33,273 nucleotides of DNA from a virus. The translations under genes were made by a program, and so were the position numbers. Where the stretch lies: IMG/VR virus record IMGVR_UViG_3300025138_000178, positions 1 to 33,273 of that record. One strand, 5' to 3'. Positions 16,893 to 28,412 of the stretch are shown here, piece after piece (the first letter of the stretch is position 1; each line of letters begins with the position of its first letter). Below the pieces are notes generated by a model. The model was given only the letters and a program-made list of their open reading frames with translations. It was not told the DNA's origin and made no database searches.

Positions 16893-16978
16893 TTTTTTTT
16901 GTTTTTATTTCTTGTTTTTAAAGTAGTTACCAAAACAAATAGACCGCAGATTATAACTAAAGCTATTTTAACACCCAT
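16889..16978 (-). CDS. 29-residue single-span membrane peptide coupled to the helicase loader
   Basis: The ATG at 16978 shares one base with the helicase-loader stop (TAATG). The TGA at 16889 overlaps the ATG of the next membrane gene. The product is MGVKIALVIICGLFVLVTTL followed by the basic tail KTRNKNKKK, an ideal single transmembrane helix with a positively charged end. Overlaps at both ends strongly suggest a translated gene even at this size. A role beside the adjacent two-span membrane protein is plausible. Confidence 0.6.
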   Translation of the reverse strand: MGVKIALVIICGLFVLVTTLKTRNKNKKK

Positions 16979-17988
16979 TATGCGCTGATTTTATTAATTA
17001 TATATTTCATTCCATGCTTGTAAACTAAACTATTAACATAGCTGTTCATGGCTTTCTGTTCGATTAATTGCGATTCCTGTTCTGTTGGTGTTAAATTAGA
17101 TTGTGTATATGGGTTCATTAAGCTTTTGATACTGAAAGAACCGCTAGAGCCTTTTAGCTCATTTAACGGCTTTAAAATTTGACTTGATACATTACCCTTA
17201 AACTTACTTAATTCTTCATTAGAAGGCATTAAAACATTCTTTTCTTCCATAATCCAGTACAAGCTTCTTGATACATAAAAATCCAATTCTAAACTTTCTC
17301 CTAATTCAACAGATTTTTTATAAGGATTTTCAAGGCATCTTTCAATAAATTCTGCTCTTATTCCTTCATAATCAACAGGTATTGAATTTATTTTTGGTTC
17401 AACAAATCGAGCAACTTTAAAACCGCGCCTGCTTTTTTCAATTGGAAAGTTTACCACGTTAACTAAATCTTTTAATCGATCATAAGCCCTTACACCGTAT
17501 TTTTTTTGTAGGTTTTCATTTGAAAAGTTTGTAGTGAAGTGGCTTTTATTCCCTGTAACTTGAAAAACTTCGTACCTGTGAAGAATTATCTTTTCAAATA
17601 CTTCTTGCTTATCTCCAAAATAGCGCCCTTGTTCTTCTGCTCCTAGATCATCAAATAAAATATCTTTTTCTGTGTTGTATTCAACCAAAACAGCAGGACC
17701 AGTTTTATTAAAATCTTCAGCTATTGTTTGACATCTGTAAAAACTAAATTTCTTTTGTGCAGAAAGCCATTTTTGAATGACTTTCATTGTGAAAGTTTTA
17801 CCTGATCCAATTGCACCACGTACAAGAAGACCCTTTTCCCTGTTTAAAGTTGTTGATCCTTCTGTAAAATAATTTAATACATTTTGGATAAATGCAGCTA
17901 ATTCAGAGCTATCAATTTCAAAATTTTCAACACGTTCTTCAACGAAGGCTTCAAAGTGTTCAAATGCTGTGTTATAGTTCATCTTCAT
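16978..17988 (-). CDS. DnaC/IstB-like ATPase, helicase loader
   Basis: A 336-residue AAA+ ATPase. Walker A is RGAIGSGKTFTMKVI (57-71). Walker B is KDILFDDLGAEEQG (108-121). Sensor 1 is FTTNFSNENL (151-160), and a candidate arginine finger lies in YGVRAYDRLKDL (164-175). This is the pattern of DnaC-type loaders, which place the host DnaB helicase on phage origin DNA. About 140 residues follow the ATPase core, longer than DnaC, and may bind the initiator or helicase. It follows and overlaps the replication initiator gene. No phage helicase or polymerase is seen, which fits use of the host replisome. Confidence 0.9.
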   Translation of the reverse strand: MKMNYNTAFEHFEAFVEERVENFEIDSSELAAFIQNVLNYFTEGSTTLNREKGLLVRGAIGSGKTFTMKVIQKWLSAQKKFSFYRCQTIAEDFNKTGPAVLVEYNTEKDILFDDLGAEEQGRYFGDKQEVFEKIILHRYEVFQVTGNKSHFTTNFSNENLQKKYGVRAYDRLKDLVNVVNFPIEKSRRGFKVARFVEPKINSIPVDYEGIRAEFIERCLENPYKKSVELGESLELDFYVSRSLYWIMEEKNVLMPSNEELSKFKGNVSSQILKPLNELKGSSGSFSIKSLMNPYTQSNLTPTEQESQLIEQKAMNSYVNSLVYKHGMKYIINKISA

Positions 17989-18721
17989 AAAATTTAGGTT
18001 GTGTAAAGTTTTTTGTTTTGTTTTCTTCAGTAATTATTTCATCCTTCCAGTGTTGACCGTTTAAATATGTTTGCGGATTTTTTCTGTAAAGTAAATCAGG
18101 TGTTGATGCAATGTAAGCAGGAAGCGTTTCAAGTATTAATTTTCTTTCAGAATCTTTTAAACGTTTGAATATTAATAAACTTTTTTCTTTACCTACTTTT
18201 TTACCGTAAAGATTCCAAAACGTTATAAATTCACTTTCAGCTTTTGCTGAACTATTTATTCTTTTCTCTTTCTTCTCTTCTCTTATATTATCTTCTCTTA
18301 TATTATCTTCTCTTATTGGTTGAAGTTCCGTTGAACGAGAATCCAACGGTCGTTGAACGGTCGTTGAACGGTCGTTGAATTGTTTTTTCTTTGCTTTTTC
18401 TTTTGCTCTTGCAACTGCTGAAGCCTTACCTGCGTTACTTGCTTGGCTTCTTATTCCTTCGCATTCTTCAAGCTGTTCATCTAAAAAACTGATATAAATT
18501 TCACCCTTAACGCTTTTTATTATTTTTGAACAGATTAATTCATTAATTAAATTTTCACCAAACTTTTTAATTATAAAACGTTTTGTAAGGTTTCCTTCTT
18601 TGCTCCAATAGATAGAACAAATATTTATAAACACCCCTTGAAGTTCAAAAGATTCCGCTGTAATATCACCGTTTGCCCATTCACCAACATAAAATTTAAA
18701 AAAAGGAATTTCTTTTGCCAT
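17972..18721 (-). CDS. Replication initiator with winged-helix N-terminus; contains the putative origin
   Basis: A 249-residue protein. The N-terminal 95 residues (FFKFYVGEWANGDITAESFE, then GVFINICSIYW) match the Lin1244/Lin1753 (DUF4373)-type domain common in phage and plasmid initiators. A low-complexity linker (about 100-155) is encoded by repeated DNA: IREDNIREDNIREE and the Ser/Thr/Arg-rich part before it. The C-terminus (about 165-249, EFITFWNLYGKKVGKEKSLL) resembles the end domain of phage replication proteins. The DNA of the linker carries iterons and an AT-rich repeat, as in lambda O. It probably binds this origin and, with the adjacent loader, recruits DnaB. An ATG at 18721 is the start. 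Confidence 0.85.
   Translation of the reverse strand: MAKEIPFFKFYVGEWANGDITAESFELQGVFINICSIYWSKEGNLTKRFIIKKFGENLINELICSKIIKSVKGEIYISFLDEQLEECEGIRSQASNAGKASAVARAKEKAKKKQFNDRSTTVQRPLDSRSTELQPIREDNIREDNIREEKKEKRINSSAKAESEFITFWNLYGKKVGKEKSLLIFKRLKDSERKLILETLPAYIASTPDLLYRKNPQTYLNGQHWKDEIITEENKTKNFTQPKFYEDEL
18276..18379. other. Putative replication origin: iterons plus AT-rich repeat inside the initiator gene
   Basis: Three perfect tandem copies of the 11-mer CGGTCGTTGAA lie at 347-357, 358-368 and 369-379 of the 18-kb region (18347-18379). A fourth CGTTGAACG stands 22 bases away at 18329. All share CGTTGAA and sit on an 11-base (one-turn) phase. Next to them is a 15-bp direct repeat, TCTTCTCTTATATTA, in 2.7 copies (18276-18316), strand-biased and AT-rich, a good duplex-unwinding candidate. 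Iterons followed by an AT-rich region within the initiator gene is the known arrangement of lambdoid origins. Initiation activity is inferred. Confidence 0.7.
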
Positions 18722-25487: not shown

Positions 25488-28412
25488 TTAAATTAAAATA
25501 TTTCCTTGACTGTCTTGAGTGTTAGTAATTGAATTTGTAATATTTGAATTGACCGCAACGGTTGAACCTTTATAAGTGTTATTAGCTAACTTTGCAGTTA
25601 TTAAAACATTACCGCTAATACAATTATTAGTAGCAGTAGTAACAATCAAATCACAATTTGTTACTTCTGCTCCACTTACATTACAAAAAACGGCTTGTGA
25701 AAAAGAACTTGTTCCCGTTGATTTAGCTACACCATTTGTAAAAACTCCAGCACCCTTAAATCTTACACCAGCATTTGCAGAGCTTTCGGCGTAACAATTA
25801 AAAGCGCGTGAACTTGTAGCTAAATTAAAGCCATTATCTGCGGTTGATTTTCCTATACTGCTATAAACAACAGAACTTGAACTGCCTAACTGTATTCCGT
25901 AGCCTGCCGTAGAAAAACCACTACAATTGTGTAATTCCCCATTAAAAACATATATTCCATGTGAAGCAGTAGAACTCCCAACGCAATTATAACAATTACT
26001 TGTACCATTGCCAAAAGATAAACCGCTGTCTCCATCTGATGTAAAATTTGAATTGTACGCGTTTACATTATTGATATTGTTAGCCGAATTTTCAGAATAA
26101 AAAGTACTATTAAACACCTCAACAACAGACAAGGAACTTTGAACTTTATTCCCATTATATGAAAAAACTTTAATATTATTTACAGTACCACTATATTCAA
26201 AACCGATTTGTGTTGTTGAGGAACTACGAAAAATACCACCGATTAAAGTAGCTTCTCCCTTTGCTGATGTACCTTCAATATTTTCAAAAGTAACTCCATT
26301 AATTATTATTTCACTTGCCAAAGTGTTTTTAGTATCTAATAAAATTCCACCGTTACTGCTACCAGTATTTCTTCTTATATATCCATTATTAATTGCAAAT
26401 TTTACTGTTGTATTAGTAGGAATTTCAAACATCGTAAAACTACCGGCACTTGTGTTTTTATACTCATATCCGTTCATGTTCCATGTAACTCCATCAATTA
26501 AGTTAATAGTTGTGGAAGTGCTTACAGATACATTTGAAAATTGCTCAATTACTGTACCACTTGATGCCGCTGATAGTGCCAGTTCAATAGTTGTATAATA
26601 GGTATATATTCCGGACGCGTTAGTTATCCCAAAAACACCGCCACCGCCACTAGGTAAATCTCCTATTGTAATTTTCTTTTTATTGTTGTTATCTGCTGCA
26701 TCCTCTATTAGTAATATGTCATTAGTAGTAGGAGTGGGTTTAGCTGTTATTCCTGATATTTCAGATTGTGCGTTAACATGAACAGCATTAGGATCAGTAC
26801 CACCACCACCTGCTAGTGCGTCAATAGCTTGCTTAACTCTTTGAGGTGTCCACCTTTTAACCGTTGTTACAGTGCCAGCCTCTGCCTCCGATTGTGTTAC
26901 TTCTGGAACTTGACTGTTGTACGATGTCTCTATCTCACCATCTGTAGGATTAACTTCAGCTCCTGCCTCTATACCATCTAATTTAGTACCATCAGTAGCA
27001 ACATCCCTACCATCAAAAGTGCTATTAGTTGTAATAGCTCCTGTCATCGCACCGCCAGACTTAGGAAGAGCGTTATCTGCTGTAGCCCCTTGAGCAGAAG
27101 TAGCGTAATCTGAAGAATCAAAAGCTTTTACTTGTGCTAAGTTGGTTACTTCAGAATCCATTAAAGCACCAGCGTTGGTAACATTAGTTGTATCTGTTAC
27201 ATCTGCTCCATCTTCTACATTAATTATTGTTCTAACTTGAGTGGCAGTAAGATCTTCAGGATCTCCCGAACCTACTGTTGCCCTACCCTTAATAGTGCTT
27301 GTAGCTACATCTGTTAACTTAGCGTTAGTAACTACATTGTTATCTATAGTAATGGATGTACCACTACCTCCTACGGTAACATCTCCATAATCTCCATCTG
27401 CTAGACCCACTAAGCTCATAATAAACCTAGAAGTAGCATTATCCCAAACGACAGCCTTACCATCAGCACTAGCACCTAAAGTACCTATGTTAGTGATATT
27501 ACCCTCTATACTACTAGCATTCCATTGGGAAACAGTATTTCCAACTTGGGAAGCAGTAACACTATGAGGATTGGCAGTGCTAGATATGTGAGTATCTATC
27601 TGCGCATGGGTGTTAGTTCCTATGTTCTGAATAGATGTATGATCTATACTCGATTGAGTAAAGTGTATAGTAGCATCTGCTATATGGGTATCTATCTGCG
27701 CATGGGTGTTAGTTCCTATATTCTGAATAGCTGTATGGTCTATACTTGCTTGAGTAAAGTGTATAGTAGCATCTGCTATATGGGTATCTATCTGCGCATG
27801 GGTGTTAGTTCCTATATTCTGAATAGCTGTATGATCTATACTTGCTTGAGTAAAGTGTATAGTAGCATCTGCTATATGGGTATCTATTTGAGAGTGAGTG
27901 TTAGTTCCTATATTCTGAATAGCTGTATGGTCTATACTCGCTTGAGTAAAGTGTATAGTAGCATCTGAAATATGAGTGTCTATCTGTGCATGAGTGTTAG
28001 TACCTATATCTGTTAGACCTGTATGACTAATAGAGTTAGTAACATAAGCAAATATTCCGTTTTGATTAACAGTTGCTATACCTCCTATAGTTTTTGCTAA
28101 ACCCTTAGCATCTGATTGACCAACAAGTAATTGACCAGTAGAAAGATTCGATATTAAATCTGATGGTGCTAACCCCCTAAGAGTATCAGCATCCAAACCA
28201 GAGCCTGCTCCATCTACTTTTTTTAAGTCTGTTAGAATCTCTTTTGGGATTCTAGAAATAAGCTCCCAGCCTCCCGAAACATAAGCTTTTAAACGGGAAT
28301 ATAAACCTCCCTCAAGGTTTTCATCTAACCATAATACATCTGTGTTAGAAGGTTCTGAAGTTCCTCTTGCTATAGCTATAGCATTTATCCCTTGAATACT
28401 TTGATCTGCCAT
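25488..28412 (-). CDS. Tail fibre/tailspike with histidine repeats and C-terminal beta-helix
   Basis: A 974-residue receptor-binding candidate. Residues 1-60 resemble the attachment end of fibres (IAIARGTSEPSNTDVLWLDE). Residues 136-277 hold five IGTNTHAQIDTHI-type repeats. Residues about 290-540 are a Gly/Ala/Asp/Thr-rich shaft (SQVGNTVSQWNASSIEGNIT). At about 550-590 is the NAVHVN...LIEDAADNNNKKK module shared with the gene at 7720-8583. From about 600 to the end runs a right-handed beta-helix with coils such as NCSGFSTAGYGIQLGSSSSV and YSSIGKSTADNGFNLATSSR, like polysaccharide-binding or -cleaving spikes. Catalytic residues cannot be assigned. No chaperone-type cleavage domain is seen. Confidence 0.88.
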   Translation of the reverse strand: MADQSIQGINAIAIARGTSEPSNTDVLWLDENLEGGLYSRLKAYVSGGWELISRIPKEILTDLKKVDGAGSGLDADTLRGLAPSDLISNLSTGQLLVGQSDAKGLAKTIGGIATVNQNGIFAYVTNSISHTGLTDIGTNTHAQIDTHISDATIHFTQASIDHTAIQNIGTNTHSQIDTHIADATIHFTQASIDHTAIQNIGTNTHAQIDTHIADATIHFTQASIDHTAIQNIGTNTHAQIDTHIADATIHFTQSSIDHTSIQNIGTNTHAQIDTHISSTANPHSVTASQVGNTVSQWNASSIEGNITNIGTLGASADGKAVVWDNATSRFIMSLVGLADGDYGDVTVGGSGTSITIDNNVVTNAKLTDVATSTIKGRATVGSGDPEDLTATQVRTIINVEDGADVTDTTNVTNAGALMDSEVTNLAQVKAFDSSDYATSAQGATADNALPKSGGAMTGAITTNSTFDGRDVATDGTKLDGIEAGAEVNPTDGEIETSYNSQVPEVTQSEAEAGTVTTVKRWTPQRVKQAIDALAGGGGTDPNAVHVNAQSEISGITAKPTPTTNDILLIEDAADNNNKKKITIGDLPSGGGGVFGITNASGIYTYYTTIELALSAASSGTVIEQFSNVSVSTSTTINLIDGVTWNMNGYEYKNTSAGSFTMFEIPTNTTVKFAINNGYIRRNTGSSNGGILLDTKNTLASEIIINGVTFENIEGTSAKGEATLIGGIFRSSSTTQIGFEYSGTVNNIKVFSYNGNKVQSSLSVVEVFNSTFYSENSANNINNVNAYNSNFTSDGDSGLSFGNGTSNCYNCVGSSTASHGIYVFNGELHNCSGFSTAGYGIQLGSSSSVVYSSIGKSTADNGFNLATSSRAFNCYAESSANAGVRFKGAGVFTNGVAKSTGTSSFSQAVFCNVSGAEVTNCDLIVTTATNNCISGNVLITAKLANNTYKGSTVAVNSNITNSITNTQDSQGNILI
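27582..28007 (-). repeat. 96-bp tandem repeats (five copies, last partial) in the fibre gene
   Basis: Units of 32 codons start at residues 136, 168, 200, 232 and 264: IGTNTHAQIDTHIADATIHF plus TQASIDHTAIQN. Four are complete. DNA copies are nearly identical (for example the segments around 27675-27770 and 27771-27866), so they could recombine and change fibre length. His-x-His-like spacing recalls the metal-binding shafts of long tail fibres such as T4 gp37; metal binding is inferred. Confidence 0.9.

Follow-up and report, generated by a model that had tools for sequence, protein, structure and literature searches.

The window analysed here, that is, the whole stretch of 33,273 bases from an IMG/VR virus record, carries a replication initiator gene whose end is overlapped by the gene for a DnaC-type helicase loader (Table 1). 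Several relatives likewise have a gene for a loader, a helicase or a primase-helicase immediately after the initiator. Most of the initiator protein (residues 4-231) is matched by the profile of PHROG 9327 (primosomal protein) with an E value of 5.5e-16, and the protein also matches PHROG 270 and 9474 (replication initiation protein). According to an AlphaFold2 model with a mean pLDDT of 84.5, it consists of a winged helix at about residues 12-116, a low-confidence linker at 117-135 and a C-terminal helical domain at 136-231. No significant match to the model was found in the PDB with Foldseek; the top folds, all weak, were winged helices with the DnaD N-domain first. A Pfam search of the initiator gave nothing over the cut-off, including for PF04492, and BLASTP detected no similarity between the initiator and lambda O. 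Against DUF1376/YdaU (PF07120), the N-terminal domain scored 12.6 bits (E 0.19) and missed the curated cut-off of 30.1. When window-like initiators (set A1, below) were compared with the DUF1376 set profile to profile, the E value was 9e-6 with a probability of 83%. As judged from these comparisons, the N-terminal domain is a remote relative of DUF1376 and no more.

Table 1. Positions of the genes, domain and repeats at the initiator locus of the window.
Feature	Position	Strand	Basis
Replication initiator gene, 249 aa	17972-18721	-	ORF; PHROG matches; AlphaFold2 model
DnaC-type helicase loader gene	16978-17988	-	PHROG 50 and 3277 (DnaC-like helicase loader)
Predicted winged-helix DNA-binding domain, residues 12-116	18374-18688	-	Model, helix-helix-helix-beta-hairpin-helix order
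Iteron array, six 11-bp slots	18318-18383	+	Sequence, TRF, register common to relatives
Iteron core 1, CGTTGAA	18329-18335	+	Sequence
Iteron core 2, CGTTGAA	18351-18357	+	Sequence
Iteron core 3, CGTTGAA	18362-18368	+	Sequence
Iteron core 4, CGTTGAA	18373-18379	+	Sequence
AT-rich 15-bp direct repeat, candidate unwinding element	18264-18316	.	TRF 3.6 copies, 92%

Two kinds of repeats lie within the initiator gene, upstream of the loader gene as an earlier note on this DNA had stated. The first is an array of six 11-bp slots, in order GGTTGAAGTTC CGTTGAACGAG AATCCAACGGT CGTTGAACGGT CGTTGAACGGT CGTTGAATTGT, which start at 18318 (GGTTGAAGTTC), 18329, 18340 (AATCCAACGGT), 18351, 18362 and 18373. The first and third slots are degenerate and the other four are exact, in agreement with the four CGTTGAA sites, of which three form a perfect 11-bp tandem, that the note had described. 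TRF reported the array at 18345-18379 with a period of 11, 3.2 copies and 100%. Its slot register is common to four relatives (L073, L083, L092 and P19250A). A scan of the window for units of 7-25 bp in at least three copies with at most one mismatch found no second 11-bp array. The CGTTGAA heptamer occurs 14 times in the whole window compared to 2.8 expected, and it is thus the 11-bp array, not the heptamer, that is diagnostic. The second kind is a 15-bp AT-rich repeat, which had been undercounted at 2.7 copies. This repeat is strand-asymmetric, with TTATCTTCTCTTATA on the plus strand and a purine-rich coding strand. Both kinds had been placed in the linker-coding part of the gene. The iterons do encode residues 113-135, matching the low-confidence linker of the model, but the AT-rich repeat codes for the beginning of the predicted helix that follows (136-172) and is therefore not strictly within the linker.

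Other signals in the window were also considered. GC skew and gene strand are uniform across nearly the entire window, with the main genes all on one strand, and so GC skew speaks neither for nor against the site as an origin. No DnaA boxes were found near the array and no terminal repeats were found on the contig. As single-stranded DNA, 18255-18400 folds better than its shuffles (z -2.8, with 1/200 as good) because AACG..CGTT is self-complementary. Elsewhere, an ORF at 25488-28412 on the minus strand contains a 96-bp (32-aa, in-frame) tandem repeat of 4.4 copies at 27585-28009, where GC is higher and GC skew flips locally; this repeat looks like that of a tail-fibre or adhesin-type gene.

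The 11-bp spacing has been followed across three sets of initiators drawn by their N-terminal domain: window-like (A1), DUF1376/YdaU (A2) and Lin1244_N (A3). For the A1 profile, the seeds were the window and its relatives at the protein level. Compared to codon shuffles, the linker DNA gave z scores at lags 11/22/33 of 17/11/9 for A1 (n=54), 39/32/25 for A2 (n=43) and 25/7/4 for A3 (n=30). Gene by gene, lag 11 exceeded all 40 codon shuffles in 35/54 of A1, 41/43 of A2 and 30/30 of A3, where the A2 and A3 fractions are inflated and represent upper bounds, the seeds of these two profiles being loci picked out by the motif. The same result was obtained for 9/250 other ORFs of the same loci, used as a control. 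With a strict core in at least three in-phase copies, 36/59 window-like genes were positive compared to 0/59 after codon shuffling. As a positive control, the test applied to lambda gene O recovered the annotated iterons (lags 20, 23 and 24). No significant lag-11 signal was found in 19/54 window-like genes, and there was little or none in Flavobacterium phage 1/32, Porphyromonas 005b, Xanthomonas Rb1 and Acinetobacter Ab105. In a small sample of DUF1376 genes chosen by Pfam from bacterial genomes, about 5/11 were clearly positive. Three bacterial, prophage-like DUF1376 genes (L312, L315 and L317) have quite different 11-bp arrays of GCTN-, ATGCC- and GCC-type, which suggests from the sequences that further iteron specificities exist. 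A search for Lin1244_N in 185 bacterial genomes of one class returned no match. Plasmids with DUF1376 were considered as a clean replicon and set aside: pSWBY1 has repM as well, and lag 11 does not reach significance in it.

The sequence of the iterons varies by lineage, with TTCAACGnnCG, AAACCGAAACA, AAAGCGAA, GCAATGC and ATAGCAAA found on the coding strand. Mostly constant among lineages are the 11-bp register, an odd middle slot (in the window TTGGATTCTCG, in L073 TTAAATTCCTG, in P19250A TTGATTTAAAT) and, immediately after the array, a tract of A-rich repeats. In relatives, the 60 nt past the array are 68% AT and 52% A. In Vibrio phage 1.183.O (MG592549.1), the repeat array of a DUF1376 gene coincides with an annotated 'CRISPR spacer' (L322:1861-1890); from its sequence, this feature is probably a misannotated origin.

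Several features of the locus are shared with the lambda origin. In lambda, an A-rich tract directly follows the iterons, as in the window (18264-18316) and generally in its relatives, and a helicase-loader gene comes next. The loader of the window is DnaC-like, and lambda P is a loader of a different type. In both lambda and Stx phages, the iterons lie in the initiator gene between the parts encoding the DNA-binding and C-terminal domains (PMC7466680). There are also differences. Lambda iterons are 18-19 bp inverted repeats spaced by 20-24 bp, whereas those of the window are 11-bp units one helical turn apart, as had been noted. Lambda O belongs to PF04492 (Pfam), whereas the window initiator is remotely related to DUF1376. 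The layout of the window is best read, from the sequences compared, as that of a lambda-style origin with differences: the initiator family is another one, the spacing is of one turn and not two, and the layout is not confined to Bacteroidota. The putative origin would work like lambda ori, but by initiator family and by the size and spacing of its iterons it is not a member of that type. It had also been stated that lambdoid origins have exactly four iterons. This was found to be incorrect: Stx phages have six, four of which are bound well, and the lambdoid count of four is therefore not fixed (PMC7466680); the window itself has six slots.

Similar arrangements occur in other replicons. The rep gene of lactococcal phage TP901-1 also contains tandem repeats mid-gene (lag 15, gene nt 286-408) but differs from the window in its 15-bp period and its HTH_36 and DnaB_2 domains. 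Like the window, iteron plasmids with a winged-helix Rep carry direct repeats beside an AT-rich region, at a spacing of roughly one or two helical turns. Plasmid iterons, typically 17-22 bp long, usually lie outside the rep gene, whereas those of the window are within the gene and 11 bp. The E. coli Rac prophage has been stated to have an active origin, oriJ, and no position of oriJ in ydaU is given in that paper (PMC3945230). The Rac ydaU-ydaV pair combines an N-terminal DUF1376, to which the window domain is remotely related, with a DnaC-like gene. The ydaU linker resembles that of the window in its repeated and inverted TGTTCAAACA-type sites and its A-rich tract; unlike the window, the register is broken and lag 11 is not significant (15/200). 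A search of mostly open-access literature found nothing linking DUF1376, YdaU or DUF4373 with a replication origin, which is weak evidence for novelty.

The array and the A-rich tract are probably the replication origin of the phage, placed inside its initiator gene in the style of lambda. This reading, drawn from sequence and analogy, retains the in-gene origin proposed in the earlier note, and support for it now goes well beyond that from the window by itself. By sequence, the initiator is not lambda-O-like. The N-terminal winged helix of the initiator would bind iterons encoded just after that domain in the same gene, and same-facing sites one helical turn apart would bring initiator molecules into line along a single DNA face. 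Next to these sites, the strand-asymmetric A-rich tract would then open, as in lambda. By analogy with lambda O and P, the C-terminal domain and the DnaC-type loader encoded next would place the host or phage helicase there.

Could the array instead be an autoregulatory operator, with the origin elsewhere? Binding of the initiator to the repeats within its gene would then shut off transcription or keep the amount of initiator low. Initiators commonly autoregulate via iterons, the array sits in an early operon, and dual use with an origin is possible. However, the array lies some 340 nt into the gene and not at a promoter, and the A-rich repeat tract joined to it in relative after relative is needless for an operator. 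An operator with an origin elsewhere is therefore improbable.

The recurrence of the exact motif bears on a further alternative, in which the array is another cis site (for packaging, partition or recombination) bound by another protein. An exact scan of IMG/VR for (CGTTGAA N4)x3 returned 43 viral contigs; chance would give far fewer than one (about 0.03, a rough estimate from base composition alone). In at least 34 of the 43, the array is at the same position in an initiator gene. The initiator genes of 29 are matched by the A1-A3 profiles, with the array at aa 105-133, and five further contigs (L023, L032, L048, L053 and L056) have it within DUF1376-like initiators; L023, the one of these five checked in Pfam, gave E 0.00036, under the curated cut-off. 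CGTTGAA is on the non-coding strand in 29/29 profile-matched genes because the reversed 11-bp lattice puts TGA in every reading frame. Identical iteron sequence and layout are found in phages of Bordetella, Methylophilaceae and Moraxella, which overturns the suggestion of a version specific to Bacteroidetes. An Enterococcus phage has 11-bp iterons of another sequence, and the arrays of Chlorobi and cyanobacterial phages are weaker or partial. A few other motif contigs look unrelated. Dense 11-bp CGTTGAA arrays with AT-rich repeats also occur by portal/terminase-like genes (L022:4195-4223, L037:4008-4176 and L059:11758-11937), on contigs where no initiator was recognised. These three arrays, outside initiators, favour the alternative of another cis site. 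Against it are the location of most matches within initiator genes and clear hybrids in which iterons are swapped together with the initiator DNA-binding domain, and it is given a very low probability.

In one set of clear hybrids, L157 and L200 are about 99% identical to L220 in everything that follows the array, starting with the A-rich repeat (for L200, 99% over 369 nt). Identity in the N-terminal domains is 47%, the iterons are CAACG-type vs CAGAT-type, and the break falls exactly at the boundary of array and A-rich tract (genes L157:2501-3250 and L220:2501-3232). The same pattern is seen in the Cellulophaga phages Nekkels and phi19:1, with CAAC- vs AACCGAA-type iterons and 93% identity in the C-terminal part vs 41% in the N-terminal. 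In an opposite class of 75 pairs, the N-terminal domain, iterons and A-rich tract are shared and the C-terminal domain differs; the pairs displayed break where the A-rich tract ends. The pairs in these counts are non-independent, and the breakpoints lie in repetitive DNA, which recombines easily anyway. In other hybrids, the iteron class is unchanged despite diverged N-termini.

Across the A1 set, iteron similarity is weakly correlated with N-terminal identity (Mantel rho 0.10, 7/500 permutations) and is not correlated with C-terminal identity (253/500). Only pairs with more than 70% N-terminal identity show high iteron similarity (0.79). Median iteron similarity does not separate pairs sharing only the C-terminal part (0.72, quartiles 0.33-0.79) from pairs sharing only the N-terminal part (0.71), and the claim of linkage therefore rests on individual hybrids and their breakpoints. 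Three-way iteron labels placed on a tree of the DNA-binding domain gave 8 changes compared to 10.6 when shuffled (about 25/500 as low); this test barely beat the shuffles because the labels were noisy, and the profile-based Mantel test took its place. The expectation that iterons change with the winged-helix domain was thus borne out in individual hybrids and only weakly across the set. The natural hybrids are suggestive, not proof, of a link between the iterons and the DNA-binding domain of the initiator.

The repeats have been selected as DNA. TCAAC cores are spaced by 11 in 176 cases, by 22 in 20 and by 33 in 13, and they occur in every codon phase (134, 69 and 106). Since 11 is not a multiple of 3, successive copies encode different peptides; this and the use of all codon phases place the selection on the DNA. 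In 2000 pairs from the A3 set, which are not independent, divergence at third codon positions was 0.21 in the array compared to 0.43 in the DNA-binding part; the low value may partly reflect homogenisation of the tandem copies. A repetitive linker peptide is hardly credible as the source of the array: the linker is predicted to be disordered and repetitive and the peptide FNDRSTTVQRP recurs in several phages, but the 11-nt unit is read in three frames to give differing peptides, in lineages with other iterons the 11-bp period is kept at this place although the encoded peptides are unrelated, and third positions are conserved in the array.

To conclude, an origin within the initiator gene is the preferred reading for the window, and the sequences tilt slightly towards a broader one. 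DUF1376/YdaU, Lin1244_N and window-like initiators may form an unrecognised and widespread class of origins, with an 11-bp lattice at the exit of the DNA-binding domain. Domain and lattice would move as one cassette with the A-rich tract as a hinge, and swaps of this one segment of the gene would create new replication specificities. If true, the replication origin would be located in a large share of the tailed phages and prophages with DUF-annotated initiators. The DUF initiator families would be assigned a function, their target sequence would become readable, and the existing 'CRISPR spacer' misannotation in one such gene would be explained. With initiator and origin in a single gene, and with natural hybrids that break cleanly, the coevolution of the two would be directly testable. 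The wider recurrence of this layout, beyond Bacteroidota, is the interesting part of the finding.
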